Of a stretch of DNA of 37,736 nucleotides, positions 2,639 to 37,736 are shown piece after piece; position 1 is the stretch's first letter, and each line of letters starts with the position of its first letter. Made by a program: the position numbers and the translations under genes. The DNA is from a virus, in IMG/VR virus record IMGVR_UViG_3300019776_000535, positions 1 to 37,736 of that record. One strand, given 5' to 3'. The notes under the pieces are model-generated. The model searched no databases and was not told the origin of the DNA. It saw only the letters and a program-made list of their open reading frames with translations.

Positions 2639-2697
2639 TTTATGTTTGTCCCTTTTTCCTCTTATTTGCACACTAGTGCTATTAAATGTGCGATGTG
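2639..2697 (+). repeat. Long iteron copy 1 (59 bp)
   Basis: TTTATGTTTGTCCC, a T/C-rich stretch, TATTTGCACACTAGTGC, then TATTAAATGTGCGATGTG. Nearly identical to copy 2 at 2793-2851. CACTAGTG is a perfect 8-bp palindrome. Confidence 0.85.
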
Positions 2698-2792
2698 TTG
2701 ATGGTGACGTGAATGACTTGCTGACTTGATGGCTACGCACGATGGATGCCAGCGGTTTGTTTTCTTGATTGATGGCCTCCATTTCAACGACT

Positions 2793-2851
2793 TTTATGTT
2801 TGTCCCTTTTTTCTCCTATTTGCACACTAGTGCTATTAAATGTGCGATGTG
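2793..2851 (+). repeat. Long iteron copy 2 (59 bp)
   Basis: Same 59-bp unit as copy 1, with only a few differences in the pyrimidine tract. Confidence 0.85.
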
Positions 2852-2903
2852 ATGGTGAGCGACGCATTTCTTGATTTCAGGATTTTGGTGATTGAGTCAC
2901 GCG

Positions 2904-2949
2904 TTTATGTTTGTCCCTTTTTTCTCCTATTTGCACACTAGTGCTATTA
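2904..2949 (+). repeat. Long iteron copy 3 (46 bp, 3' part lost)
   Basis: Keeps TTTATGTTTGTCCC, the pyrimidine tract, the CACTAGTG palindrome and CTATTA, then diverges. Confidence 0.85.
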
Positions 2950-3044
2950 TTTCCGTGTTTTGTATGAATGGTGTGACCTCTTGATTCGACGCGCACGTTG
3001 ATTGCCAACTGTTCGTGACGGTCGGTGCTTGTTGATTGAATGCG

Positions 3045-3088
3045 AAAAAGCCAGGATTTTTGGATTACTCCAATCGTCCTGGCTTTTT
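3045..3088. terminator. Bidirectional rho-independent terminator
   Basis: A 12-bp perfect inverted repeat, AAAAAGCCAGGA (3045-3056) and TCCTGGCTTTTT (3077-3088), encloses a second small hairpin (TTGGA/TCCAA). It gives a U-run at the 3' end in both directions. It separates the iteron region from the 146-aa gene. Confidence 0.85.
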
Positions 3089-3113
3089 GCTTGATGCTTC
3101 GTGATGCGTCGCG

Positions 3114-3134
3114 TTTATGTTTGTCCCTTTTTTC
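3114..3134 (+). repeat. Short iteron copy 4 (21 bp)
   Basis: TTTATGTTTGTCCCTTTTTT plus one C. Overlaps the last codons and stop of the minus-strand gene 3115-3555. Confidence 0.85.
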
Positions 3135-3555
3135 CTGATCGAAGCAGCCGCAACTGTTCTACAACCATTACGTCAAACGTCCGTGTTCCCTCTTTCAGGC
3201 CCTTAGCTATCAACAACTGTCGCAAGCCATCCTCTTCGGCTTGCGCCGCATCATAGGCTTCTAGCAGCGCGGATAGTGCGGCCACCGCTTGCGGGTTGGC
3301 AACGTATTCTTTCCATTCATTCGACTTGGGTGAATAGCTGCCAAGCTGTAGGAAGCACTGACGCAGCGTCTGTGCAAGCGGCTTATTCGGCTGACCACAC
3401 GCGTAGTCCAGCTCAATCCTAAGGAACCGTTCGGTCGCTGGCTTTGCGGCAATCACCGCTAAGCACTGGCGAACACGGTCGCGCGTGCGTTTATGGGATA
3501 GGTTGAGGGCTTCAAATGCATTTATGTTTGTCCCTTTTTTCTGGGCTGATGTCAT
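3115..3555 (-). CDS. Hypothetical 146-aa protein bracketed by iteron repeats
   Basis: An alpha-helical protein (MTSAQKKGTNINAFEALN ... LLRSGKKGQT) that I do not recognise. Both ends of the coding sequence are made from the same 21-bp repeat found in the noncoding region to the left: copy 5 encodes residues about 5-11 and copy 4 encodes the last residues and stop codon. A replication or copy-control protein binding those repeats is possible, but no Rep family motif is visible. The start has only a weak ribosome site (GTGAA). The leader upstream is highly structured and begins near a TAAATA motif at 3703-3698. The middle (YDAAQAEEDGLRQLLIAKGLKEG) is charged and helical. Confidence 0.7.
   Translation of the reverse strand: MTSAQKKGTNINAFEALNLSHKRTRDRVRQCLAVIAAKPATERFLRIELDYACGQPNKPLAQTLRQCFLQLGSYSPKSNEWKEYVANPQAVAALSALLEAYDAAQAEEDGLRQLLIAKGLKEGTRTFDVMVVEQLRLLRSGKKGQT
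3521..3541 (+). repeat. Short iteron copy 5 (21 bp)
   Basis: Same 21-bp core as copies 1-4, lying within the N-terminal codons of the minus-strand gene 3115-3555. Confidence 0.85.
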
Positions 3556-3565
3556 TTCACTGTCC

Positions 3566-3693
3566 GATTCACTAGGTTGAACAACACGGTGCCTGCCAGA
3601 ACCGTGGTCAGCGCATAGAAGGTGGGCCTAGTGAAAGACGGTTCATTGCGAACCTGAGGCTTGGCAGGCTTCACCCACCTTCTATGCGCTGAC
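3566..3693 (-). promoter_or_regulatory. Highly structured leader with pseudoknot/kissing-loop potential
   Basis: A perfect 20-bp inverted repeat joins 3607-3626 with 3674-3693 across a 47-nt loop. Inside the loop, GCCTGCCA can pair with TGGCAGGC, whose partner lies outside the stem (about 3592-3600) in the loop of a second hairpin (CACGGT/ACCGTG). TTCACTAGG also pairs with CCTAGTGAA across the stem (about 3565-3573 with 3627-3635). On the minus strand this forms the leader of gene 3115-3555, downstream of a TAAATA motif. Function unknown: regulatory RNA, attenuator or DNA site. Confidence 0.6.
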
Positions 3694-3697
3694 GTTC

Positions 3698-3703
3698 TAT
3701 TTA
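3698..3703 (-). promoter_or_regulatory. TAAATA late-type motif
   Basis: TAAATA on the minus strand, preceded by CGA as in two copies near 1550 and 1968. It is the only copy far (142 nt) from its gene start; the structured leader fills the gap. Confidence 0.45.
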
Positions 3704-3739
3704 TCGGACTTCAGTATTCTACTGTCGGAAATCAGCCAG

Positions 3740-4357
3740 TTATTGTTTTGGTTGGGTCGAAGGCAGCCTTAGTCTGATTAGATGAAAATAAATGATTGAC
3801 CTTCTATCGGCAAGTCGTTTGTCGCAGTCGTCTTGCGATCTAATCGTCCGTTCAAAGTCGCGTTTGGCTTCATCTAGTTCGTATCTTGTGGCTATGCCTT
3901 GGTCGAACTTGTTCTGCGTGACGCGAAGGTCCTCGCTTTGTCGTGAAAGCAGAAACTCATAGTCGCAGGTCGTGTTATTGGCTATTTCATTCTGCTGAAC
4001 CCAATAGCCAATCGGGTCGAGCGTCCCTACAAAGCCTTCATTGCCACGGTCGCGAATCGACAGCGTGAAGAGGCCAATGACCGAGGCCATAACAATCAGC
4101 CATCGAAAACGATAGACGACGCTTCGTTTATAGGTGCCGCCTAAAATCTGCTCAATCTGGGCGATTGGCCTGCTCAACACAAGCACGATGATGATGAGCA
4201 GGACTATAAGACCTAGTCCGCTGTATCTTGTCTGCTGCGCCGTTGGTGTAGTGGCAATCCAAGGCATTGCCACTGCCGCTGTCAACATTAGCGCCGCATA
4301 GAACTGCACCTTTGTTTCCATCGAGGCAAGTTCAACTTCGTATGGCTTGTTGCTCAT
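3740..4357 (-). CDS. Three-helix membrane protein, unknown function
   Basis: A 205-aa protein. ATG 4357 has GGGAG 7 nt upstream. Hydrophobic segments lie at about residues 19-36, 47-62 and 86-100. A 100-residue soluble C-terminal part rich in charged helices follows (DLRVTQNKFDQGIATRYELDEAKRDF and on). The second hydrophobic stretch (IVLLIIIVLVLS) is followed by RPIAQIEQILGG. I do not recognise a family. Membrane proteins in this position of temperate phages are often lysogenic-conversion or superinfection-exclusion genes; that is only inference. Its 5' end faces away from the plus-strand cluster at 4462. Confidence 0.7.
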   Translation of the reverse strand: MSNKPYEVELASMETKVQFYAALMLTAAVAMPWIATTPTAQQTRYSGLGLIVLLIIIVLVLSRPIAQIEQILGGTYKRSVVYRFRWLIVMASVIGLFTLSIRDRGNEGFVGTLDPIGYWVQQNEIANNTTCDYEFLLSRQSEDLRVTQNKFDQGIATRYELDEAKRDFERTIRSQDDCDKRLADRRSIIYFHLIRLRLPSTQPKQ

Positions 4358-8820: not shown

Positions 8821-8849
8821 GGCACCTGAGCGAACTCAGGTGCCTTTTT
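8821..8849 (+). terminator. Rho-independent terminator after denV
   Basis: A 10-bp perfect stem, GGCACCTGAG/CTCAGGTGCC, with a CGAA tetraloop followed by TTTTT. The minus-strand helicase gene stops inside the stem. Confidence 0.92.
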
Positions 8850-10734
8850 GTTTCTGCTCACGCCATTGATCGAATGCTGCACGTCGAGCTGCGGGCAAGT
8901 GCTCGACAGCCTTCTCGGCTTCTGGTGATAGTCCAAATGTTTCAGCATTGTTCAACAAGTCCATCAAGCGAAGTTCGAATGGCGTCACTTCGCCGTGGAA
9001 CACAAGTCCTGGTGTAGTTGGCTGGTCACTGCTCCAAGGTGTTCTTGTATAGCGGATGCGCTCAATGACCTTGTTGTAGTAAATCGGGTCAATGAGTAGG
9101 ACGGCAGGCTTGCCACGCCAGCGATAGCCTTGATTCCGTCCTAGTGCTTGATTGGCTGCATCAGCAAGATGCCAAGCATTCAACTCACGTTGTCGCTTGG
9201 TTAGCTCAAAGTGCGCGTTCAGTGTAATGCTGATAGTTGGATTGGCGACTGATAGCTTAATGATTGACGCGCACTCGGTCAGCGTGTTTAAGCCACGAAT
9301 GTTGGATAGGTTGTATTCAGCGCCGATGCCGTTAGCAATGAGGCAGACGGATTCAGTTGGGAACTCCTTGCGAAGCTGCTCAGCTATTGCTATCAGAACG
9401 CCGTGATTGCCACGCCGCGTTATCGTTGTTTTGATTGTCGTCACATGGCATCGCGCATTCTGCGGTAGCAGAATGTTGGCCCCGCTATGCAGCATCTTTA
9501 GACCAACGTTCTCCATTGTCTTTTGGGCGTATGCTGCGGTGATGTATTCTGTGGTCAGAACAAGCAGCTTTGGACGATTGCCTTGATTGCTGTGGCCCTT
9601 TGTGAATGCGAAGCCGAGCGTCATTCGGCGCGGTCGCTGCTCAAAGTGATGATTTCTGAAAGTCTTGATGTTGTGCATAATCGCGCCGCTCGCGTGGTAT
9701 GCAGCTAATCCTTTTGCATAGGCTGCGGACATGCCTTGCTCTATCCAGTATTCGACCGTTGCCCATTCTGATTTCAGCTTGCCGAGCTTGCTTCGCTTGT
9801 GAAACAAGTATTCGGCATCATCCTCATCGTCGATTGAACGAAGCCAATCAAAGTCGGTGTAGTCAGGGTCGTCTATAACCGCTACGACCTTGCTAAATCC
9901 AATCGGCTTTTCAATCGTTTCATTGCCTTTTTCGATGATTTTGACGCCAGTAGTGAGGCCAAGTGGAACCCACCACGGATTTTTCCAGCTCAGTGACAGC
10001 GCTTGAAATGCGCTGATTGTGAGCATCATCACATCGAGATTTAGGCCATCGAGCATTGGTGCTGAATAGCCCTCGTGATGTTCTGCAAAGAAGTCCGCTG
10101 CATCAACGTCAAGGCCAGCTTCTTGGAATCTCTCAGCTAACGCATCAATCGTTGCTTGCACTATGACCTGTGGTGTGCCATACGGATTTAGCGGCTCAGT
10201 TTGCACGAGTTCAAAATCATTAATGCCAAGTTCAGCGAGTTCGGTTTTGAAGTGTTGAGCCTTTGAGATGTAGCGATCAATTCGCAGGTCAGGCCATCGT
10301 TGGCGAAAGCCGTTCTCTTGTTCAATCAACTGCTTGTTCGATTTCGAGCAGAACACAACCTTGTGTCCAAGCTCCACAAGTCTGCGCACAAGCGATGACT
10401 TGCCATAACCTTCAGGACGAACAAGAATGAATGCGTCAATCGGCCACTTCTGGGCCCATCCATTTGGACGGTCGATTCGCGTGAGCGCGCAAATCTTTTG
10501 AGCTTGTTTCTCTAGGTCAGATTCGGCATCGGTGCCAGGCTTTCGCTTCTTGCTTTTGGTCTCGATTTCGACAGGAACGAACTGCGAAGTTCCATTCAGC
10601 ACCGCTTCGACCATTGTCAAGAAGTCGTCACCTTCAGCATAATCGGTGAGAAAGTGACCGCCTTCTAAATCGTCTAGCCATGGGAACTCAGTCTCTGTGC
10701 TGTCAGATAAAAAGTCTAAGAAGCTGTCGTCCAT
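8836..10734 (-). CDS. Divergent SF2-like helicase/replication ATPase
   Basis: A 632-aa protein. The Walker A is ILVRPEGYGKSSLVRR (about 104-118), a motif-Ia-like strand VVFCSKSNK follows, Walker B/DEAD-like VVAVIDDPD is at about 283-291, motif V-like NIRGLNTL at about 478-485, and motif VI-like QALGRNQGYR at about 529-538. The first 100 residues are very acidic (DSFLDFLSDSTETEFPWLDD). Motif order fits an SF2 helicase with a long insertion between Walker B and motif V. It is the only recognisable replication enzyme in the window, so it probably unwinds the phage origin or fork. The start lacks a clear Shine-Dalgarno and faces a divergently oriented small gene. Confidence 0.75.
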   Translation of the reverse strand: MDDSFLDFLSDSTETEFPWLDDLEGGHFLTDYAEGDDFLTMVEAVLNGTSQFVPVEIETKSKKRKPGTDAESDLEKQAQKICALTRIDRPNGWAQKWPIDAFILVRPEGYGKSSLVRRLVELGHKVVFCSKSNKQLIEQENGFRQRWPDLRIDRYISKAQHFKTELAELGINDFELVQTEPLNPYGTPQVIVQATIDALAERFQEAGLDVDAADFFAEHHEGYSAPMLDGLNLDVMMLTISAFQALSLSWKNPWWVPLGLTTGVKIIEKGNETIEKPIGFSKVVAVIDDPDYTDFDWLRSIDDEDDAEYLFHKRSKLGKLKSEWATVEYWIEQGMSAAYAKGLAAYHASGAIMHNIKTFRNHHFEQRPRRMTLGFAFTKGHSNQGNRPKLLVLTTEYITAAYAQKTMENVGLKMLHSGANILLPQNARCHVTTIKTTITRRGNHGVLIAIAEQLRKEFPTESVCLIANGIGAEYNLSNIRGLNTLTECASIIKLSVANPTISITLNAHFELTKRQRELNAWHLADAANQALGRNQGYRWRGKPAVLLIDPIYYNKVIERIRYTRTPWSSDQPTTPGLVFHGEVTPFELRLMDLLNNAETFGLSPEAEKAVEHLPAARRAAFDQWREQKQKGT

Positions 10735-10780
10735 TTATGCGCCAAACTTTGATGACCCGAGGGTTCAGGCAAGGTTGCGG

Positions 10781-10996
10781 ATGGTGCTGGCTTGGTGCTT
10801 GCCACGTTCTATGTCTAGCTTCGAGGCGCACTCGTCCGAGCTGACCAAGGTGTTCGGCAACCAGACGAGCAACAAGTTCGGTCGCTGGCTACGCTCGCGC
10901 TTGCTGATTAGCGTCGAGGCGACGAGTGGTAAGACGTATTGGTATGACATAGACGTTGCGGCATTGGAGCAGCTGCGTGCTGTAGTGAAGCGTTGA
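10781..10996 (+). CDS. Small winged-helix-like protein
   Basis: The frame is open from 10697, but the upstream GTG lies inside the opposite helicase gene; ATG 10781 has AAGG 6 nt upstream and gives 71 aa. The segment SSELTKVFGNQTSNKFGRWL then RSRLLISVEA ... KTYWYDID looks like a winged helix (two helices, then a beta wing). It probably binds DNA and may regulate or assist the divergent helicase. Extended starts (DPRVQARLRMVLAW) remain possible. Confidence 0.5.
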   Translation: MVLAWCLPRSMSSFEAHSSELTKVFGNQTSNKFGRWLRSRLLISVEATSGKTYWYDIDVAALEQLRAVVKR

Positions 10997-37032: not shown

Positions 37033-37736
37033 TCAGTATCCAGAGAGACGGATTGGTCCGTTTGAGGTCGTTGGTGGAAAGCGGTAGTGAACGAAATAGC
37101 CAAAGCCGTCGAGCGAGTGGTCGAGACCTTTGGTTTTGTCAGGCTGGCCCTGGGCGTCCTTCGTTTGACGAAGCAAGCCGTTGTGAAGGTGAGGGCACTT
37201 GGTTTGATTGACGTAGGTGCGGACCATTCCAGTCGGCGTCGCAAGGCAATCATTCACAGCCGTCACTCGACGCTCGACCTGCGGGTTCTTGTTTGGATGT
37301 AGAACTCGCTCGGACCCATAGGCGCGCTTGAGCTGCTGAATGCCCTCAAAGCCTGATGCGTCTGGATAGATGTAGAACAGGCGATTGCCGATGCGACGGT
37401 TCAGCTCGGCAATCAGGCGGTCCGTGTCGGTCATTCCATAGATTTCATCAAGGGCATACACGATTCCGTCCTGAACGACGCTCAGGGTCGCAGCATTGAT
37501 GCCCTTGTTGAAGTCCAGACCAACGTGAATCGGCAGGTTGTGAAAGCGTGGCTCGGCCAGCGTCAGATTGGTGTTGTTCGCTTCCTTGTTGTAGCGGTAA
37601 TAGACCAGCAGGCCATCGAGGTTGATGAACTCGCCATAGACGTATGCCTTCAGCGTGCGTGGGTCACGCGTTTGAATCTGGCTGCGAACATAGTCGGCAT
37701 CGATGTATGGATTGTCGAACGTGCAGCCACGAATGA
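37033..37736 (-). CDS. terL: Terminase large subunit, nuclease domain (5' end beyond the right edge)
   Basis: The frame is open from the window edge to the stop at 37033, about 233 codons; an internal ATG at 37461 is not the real start. It holds the RNase-H-like nuclease domain: HVGLDFNKGINAATLSVV with the first catalytic Asp, YPDASGFEG with the second, and the C-terminal LDHSLDGFGYFVHYRF with the third acidic residue. FVHYRF is the usual end of this family. The ATPase half lies outside the window. TerL cuts concatemeric DNA and drives packaging. Confidence 0.92.
   Translation of the reverse strand, partial: IRGCTFDNPYIDADYVRSQIQTRDPRTLKAYVYGEFINLDGLLVYYRYNKEANNTNLTLAEPRFHNLPIHVGLDFNKGINAATLSVVQDGIVYALDEIYGMTDTDRLIAELNRRIGNRLFYIYPDASGFEGIQQLKRAYGSERVLHPNKNPQVERRVTAVNDCLATPTGMVRTYVNQTKCPHLHNGLLRQTKDAQGQPDKTKGLDHSLDGFGYFVHYRFPPTTSNGPIRLSGY

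Follow-up and report, generated by a model that had tools for sequence, protein, structure and literature searches.

The locus raises the question of whether the long inverted repeat in front of a 146-aa open reading frame is part of a functional RNA and, if so, what such an RNA would do for the gene that follows it. The window (the whole stretch of DNA that was analysed) is 37.7 kb long and forms part of the genome of a siphovirus-like phage whose virion genes (portal, scaffold, major head, tape measure) are located on the minus strand. From inspection of the translation by eye, the window appears to end within a terminase large subunit of which only the C-terminal part is present (37033-37461, minus strand), leaving the fragment incomplete at that point.

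Architecture of the element

The stem, P1, is a perfect 20-nt inverted repeat that joins 3607-3626 with 3674-3693 (20/20 paired). Two further pairings connect its interior to the sequence beyond it: GCCTGCCA at 3591-3598 is exactly complementary to TGGCAGGC at 3662-3669 (the B pairing), and TTCACTAGG at 3568-3576 is exactly complementary to CCTAGTGAA at 3627-3635 (the A pairing). The GCCTGCCA segment lies in the loop of a flanking hairpin with arms at 3585-3590 and 3601-3606. The stem and both pairings had been described in an earlier note on this DNA, together with a segment order of A-B-C-A'-B'-C', and all were confirmed in place. The same note had put GCCTGCCA and TTCACTAGG in the loop enclosed by the stem; this holds for the minus-strand RNA; on the plus strand it is the complements that the stem encloses, with GCCTGCCA and TTCACTAGG beyond its arms. 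Read as minus-strand RNA, the order is P1–B–hairpin–A–P1′–(hairpin holding B′)–A′ followed by the 146-aa gene, with the following parts:

3698..3703, minus strand: TAAATA promoter motif of T4-late type, assigned by the strand bias of TAAATAG and a spacing rule; predicted start about 3692
3674..3693, minus strand: P1, 5' arm in the RNA; two-sided changes at 19/20 positions across four loci
3662..3669, minus strand: B segment GCCUGCCA, 4 nt 3' of the P1 5' arm; same place in three related loci (L009, L021, L024)
3640..3654, minus strand: inner hairpin H1, loop CGCAAUG (YGCAAYG motif); the motif is also found in L021, L024 and stand-alone RNAs
3627..3635, minus strand: A segment UUCACUAGG, adjoining the P1 3' arm
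3607..3626, minus strand: P1, 3' arm in the RNA, partner of 3674..3693
3585..3606, minus strand: hairpin H2 (CACGGU/ACCGUG) with B' in its loop; short arms flank B' in 4/4 loci
3591..3598, minus strand: B' segment UGGCAGGC, within the loop of the hairpin after P1
3568..3576, minus strand: A' segment CCUAGUGAA, at positions -21 to -13 relative to the start codon of the 146-aa gene

The minus-strand fold has a calculated energy of -60.7 kcal/mol compared to -42.3 for shuffles (z = -4.5), and both strands fold about 4.5 to 5 SD below shuffled sequence, with pseudoknots left uncounted in each of these figures. Given P1 of the window, A and B pairings as good as those observed arise jointly in 1e-4 of shuffles, and over the four loci that carry the element the corresponding frequency ranges from 1e-4 to 7e-4 per locus. 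Taken alone, the A/A' pairing of L009 consists of 6 pairs only and is within chance (p = 0.21). When both strands of 400 kb from related loci were scanned with a descriptor of P1 plus B, exactly these four loci matched, and a scan of 2 Mb of Markov-shuffled sequence had no match; the descriptor was written after the four loci had been seen, and it is the absence of others rather than the recovery of these four that serves as a test. The suggestion in the earlier note that such an arrangement is unlikely by chance is borne out by these figures.

Relatives and compensatory change

Neither the stem nor the repeat, searched as an exact DNA pattern, had a match in IMG/VR. Searches with the portal protein identified L009, a prophage of Xenophilus sp. 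E41 (57% identity), and L021 (52%); in both, the element precedes a gene of 366 or 376 aa. A profile of the 366/376-aa protein then led to 36 loci, among them L024 with a fourth copy of the element. The carriers besides the window (n = 3) are the Xenophilus prophage and two metagenomic phage contigs, L021 and L024. Another portal relative, L056 (45%), is a fragment with no polymerase in the record and no RNA in the part that was read.

The order of the parts is the same in the four loci. In each, the P1 5' arm is followed after 2-4 nt by B, the inner hairpin, and A adjoining the P1 3' arm; beyond the P1 3' arm are B' between short complementary arms, A', and the start codon. P1 varies from 20 to 26 pairs; L009 and L021 are alike, and the window and L024 are unlike these two and unlike each other. 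Since MAFFT alignments of the four leaders put segments in the wrong places, pairs were counted on hand-placed helices, with two-sided changes observed at 19/20 aligned P1 positions and 7/8 B positions. The presence of G-U pairs inside P1 of L009, L021 and L024 points to RNA. The H1 loop of L009 departs from the YGCAAYG motif.

That the same knotted shape is written with different letters in three relatives argues for a real RNA element. The RNA nature of the element is well supported, and the two long-range pairings, both maintained through compensatory changes, provide strong evidence of a functional RNA. The earlier note had proposed a structured leader with kissing and pseudoknot pairing, for which compensatory changes in homologues were to be the check; their presence in the three relatives lends it good support.

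Promoter, downstream gene and related RNAs

The motif TAAATAG is present at 11 sites on the minus strand of the window and at none on the plus strand. Nine of the 11 are just upstream of virion genes, another is at 1969, and the last is 4 nt before P1. The related pattern AAATAGRR was observed 10 times in the window against 1.3 expected. T4 late promoters present TATAAATA at -13 to -6 (PMC1524935) and are without a -35 element (PMC2988020). Compared to a T4-type late promoter, defined by a TATAAATA-like motif, no -35 and a position before late genes, the motif, its strand bias and its places in the window all fit. From the T4-late spacing rule, the RNA is predicted to start at about 3692, the outer end of P1. 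In the window, L009 and L021, P1 is immediately preceded by TAAATA; L024 lacks it and has a sigma70-like -10 at the same place. The strand bias and the nine sites before virion genes agree with the earlier proposal that a TAAATA motif reads the element into the 146-aa gene, the transcript itself being a prediction. An inverted repeat past the gene would end the predicted transcription unit. Several late-gene leaders of the window (1968, 18920, 21626, 32350 and 35646, minus strand) start with an inverted repeat that ends at or near the start codon, for example ATAGAGAC...GTCTCTATG. A starting inverted repeat of at least 7 pairs is found in 4/11 TAAATAG leaders as compared to 3.4% of random places.

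The surroundings of the element comprise:

3115..3555, minus strand: 146-aa open reading frame, a stand-alone N-terminal (predicted winged-helix) domain of a polymerase family, from hhalign, hmmsearch and a structure model
3045..3088, minus strand: terminator-like inverted repeat after this frame, arms 3045-3064 / 3069-3088, with flanking A/T runs
2639, 2793, 2904, 3114 and 3521 (span 2639..3537), minus strand: five copies of the iteron-like AAAGGGACAAACATAAA, 5 found vs 0.05 expected
10697..10996, plus strand: the N-terminal domain again, as a second stand-alone copy that lacks this leader (hmmsearch E 2e-13)

Each of the four leaders is followed, in the same orientation, by a gene that encodes the same N-terminal domain, which is fused to an undescribed minimal A-family DNA polymerase in the relatives and stands alone in the window. 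With E-values of 2.5e-6 (hhalign) and 1.6e-6 (hmmsearch), the 146-aa protein (model pLDDT = 84) corresponds to the N-terminal domain of the polymerase family, which has 25 members. By sequence alone, the 146-aa protein has no relatives in IMG/VR. BgManors32 gp84 was considered as a relative from a weak match and discarded after a profile comparison gave 0.1%. A six-frame profile search of the window, itself a fragment, identified only the two N-terminal domains and no polymerase domain. The second domain copy (10697-10996, plus strand) overlaps a divergent, unannotated 632-aa gene (8836-10734, minus strand).

Members of the polymerase family are about 345-415 aa in length with a winged-helix-like N-terminal domain (e.g., L009:5496-6596). 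Structure models of the full-length relatives (pLDDT = 89) are those of minimal A-family DNA polymerases, and residues 130-361 of the L009 model superimpose on T7 DNA polymerase (Z = 12.6, RMSD 3.3, 211 aligned). The A-family palm fold and motifs A, B and C (YDI, K..(I/L)N and EHDG) were found in the relatives only. The family is covered by no Pfam or PHROGs family, and a tblastn search of GenBank phages produced no convincing relative. A distant homologue of the polymerase adjoins repA on a Polaromonas plasmid. Among 399 Burkholderiales genomes, the polymerase was found only in the known Xenophilus prophage; 401 host-family genomes yielded the same prophage and, in addition, a single gene for the isolated N-terminal domain, which has no leader RNA in its vicinity. 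The bacterial genome L058 has the N-terminal domain alone, without the leader RNA. The model of the N-terminal domain has the winged-helix order of elements. Solved winged helices match this fold only weakly (Z = 5.7 at best, from mixed families), and the predicted winged-helix label therefore follows mainly from the order of helices and strands. A role of the protein in replication would follow from its membership in the polymerase family.

The iteron-like repeats are positioned after the gene in L009 and L021, and around the gene in the window. A ACAAACATA core is common to the repeats of the window and those after the L009 gene, and TATGTTTGT is shared by L009 and the window in opposite orientation relative to the gene. 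The window also contains three direct repeats of 45-65 nt (2639-2703, 2793-2857 and 2904-2968), each with a palindrome CACTAGTG, a promoter-like motif CAAATAGGA, and the iteron-like AAAGGGACAAACATAAA.

Many other contigs have a candidate RNA between genes, ahead of the polymerase gene, that combines TAAATA with a long stem beginning where the transcript is expected to start, often a YGCAAYG hairpin loop, and usually a terminator. None of those run against Rfam had a match. Loci with such candidates include L012, L025, L026, L028, L030, L031, L038, L043, L044, L048, L049, L052 and L053; YGCCAUA hairpin loops and, often, UCCU before the P1 3' arm are further features. A TAAATA-stem-YGCAAYG descriptor, written after some of its matches had been seen, found 8 matches in 365 kb, all in sense and all upstream of the polymerase family, and none in ten shuffled sets. 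In GenBank phages, blastn searches with the stand-alone RNAs returned only short chance pieces or nothing. The YGCAAYG hairpin follows P1 in the stand-alone class and is inside P1 in the leader class; a common origin of the two would be plausible. A different pseudoknotted leader is found directly before the polymerase gene in L031 (4738-4866), where CTCCTAAGT pairs with ACTTAGGAG at the Shine-Dalgarno sequence and the hairpin loop TATGATAG pairs with CTATCAT downstream.

Possible control of translation, alternatives and known systems

The reading favored here, to which we give about an even chance, is a leader RNA made from a late promoter, with a pseudoknot that controls whether a protein of the replication module is translated. 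Transcription would start from the T4-late-type promoter (TAAATA) at the outer end of P1, B at the top of P1 would pair with B' just after P1, and A beside the P1 3' arm would pair with A' in the ribosome-binding region of the downstream gene. Relative to the start codon, A' is at -21 to -13 in the window, -15 to -10 in L009, -12 to -7 in L021, and -17 to -10 in L024. In three of the four loci it takes in the Shine-Dalgarno core, as AGGA in L009 and L021 and as the first part of AAGGAG in L024. From this placement and overlap, the A pairing would hinder ribosome binding. In the window, A' is just upstream of the likely Shine-Dalgarno sequence (GGA) and occlusion would be less direct; there, the A segment could pair instead with AGUGAAA at the start codon. 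With A/A' formed the gene would be off, and a change of fold brought about by the partner of the encoded protein, another protein or another RNA would turn it on. Transcript and ligand are what we infer, and the sign of control is a guess.

As to geometry, B begins at the top of P1 and B' is near its base; a B/B' helix lying back along P1 may be accommodated, the 3- to 11-nt linkers being long enough, roughly, to bridge the gap in 4/4 loci, with the tightest fit in L021. A' would then be carried to the top of P1, next to A. The arms around B' may either form a true kissing loop alongside B/B' or give way. Pairing between two RNA molecules is possible.

Translational gating is to be weighed against readings in which the RNA or its DNA serves another end. 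It is possible, if doubtful, that the RNA is the product, either a phage noncoding RNA that acts in trans or an RNA partner of replication, and that it has been fused here to a gene leader. The TAAATA-stem-YGCAAYG candidates of other polymerase phages, usually with a terminator, suggest as much, and UCCU before the P1 3' arm of the stand-alone RNAs, noticed post hoc, could pair with a Shine-Dalgarno sequence in trans. However, the four leader-class loci have no terminator before the gene, A' sits at the start codon, and the YGCAAYG hairpin differs in place between the classes so that their common origin is only plausible. A broader form of this idea, which we think unlikely, is that the stand-alone RNAs of many uncultivated aquatic phages and the leader-fused RNA here make up one family and serve an undescribed replication system (winged-helix domain, minimal A-family polymerase and iteron-like repeats) as its dedicated RNA partner, for instance as a primer, a scaffold or a copy-control RNA. 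Less probable again is that P1 merely shields the 5' end of the messenger from decay and that the other pairings are incidental; the short inverted repeats that begin other TAAATAG leaders of the window (4/11 vs 3.4%) would suit this, but a stabilizer needs neither B/B' nor A/A', and both are kept in four loci despite different sequences.

A DNA element, be it a replication-origin hairpin, cruciform or protein-binding site, would be in keeping with the adjoining iteron-like repeats and replication-type gene, yet it is very improbable given the G-U pairs in P1 of three loci, the fixed place directly after the promoter and before the start codon, and segment pairings that are possible only for a single strand. 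A packaging RNA like phi29 pRNA is barely credible: although the promoter is of late type, the loops could pair between molecules, and terminase genes are downstream in L009, the RNA stays with the polymerase-family gene and has no Rfam match even at E 10, barring chance microRNA matches. Portal and terminase of the types found here are not known to depend on an RNA. The earlier note had left the choice among a regulatory RNA, a packaging RNA and a recombination or replication site; the regulatory role is now the best supported, a link to replication is provided by the polymerase N-terminal domain, and neither packaging nor recombination gained positive evidence.

The element is undescribed in the catalogues that were searched. 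With Rfam 15, no family matched the window or eleven related loci at the gathering threshold, the only hits being chance miRNA matches (E 0.27 and 3.5). Because it is attached to a replication-type gene family that neither Pfam nor PHROGs contains and that has no convincing relative in GenBank phages, the RNA provides a tangible entry point to replication control in these uncultivated phages. The prophage that carries one member has been sequenced and its host strain, Xenophilus sp. E41, is named, so tests are within reach.

Known systems resemble the element in part. HDV-like and other pseudoknotted self-cleaving ribozymes share a nested double pseudoknot with P1 at the 5' end of the RNA; the element differs from them by a P1 of 20-25 pairs, an extra A/A' helix, and the lack of an Rfam match at E 10. 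The phi29 packaging RNA, also from a phage, is about as large and has loops that can kiss, but has an Rfam identity not matched here and another gene neighborhood. The autogenous translational operator of the T4/RB69 DNA polymerase gp43 is one short hairpin bound by the polymerase. It is likewise a leader structure of a phage DNA polymerase gene near the ribosome-binding site; in contrast, the structure here is large and pseudoknotted, and the window gene is without a polymerase domain.

In I-complex and IncL/M plasmids such as ColIb-P9 (repZ), rep has a long structured leader with a pseudoknot by the ribosome-binding site (PMC8383071, PMC10724649), and in ColIb-P9 translation is switched on by this pseudoknot, which lies upstream of the binding site (PMC8383071). 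The likeness is that of a long structured leader of a gene with a probable replication role and a loop-to-downstream pseudoknot by the ribosome-binding site. ColIb-P9 repZ also has a competing antisense RNA and a translated leader peptide in addition to its activating pseudoknot; a search of window 3000-4000, covering sigma70-type promoters only, found none for an antisense RNA. Unlike ColIb-P9, A' here overlaps the binding region, there are two long-range helices, and a 20-25 bp stem stands at the start of the RNA. The pseudoknot here could equally be an activator of translation, like that of ColIb-P9, whose repZ leader is the nearest precedent for the element.
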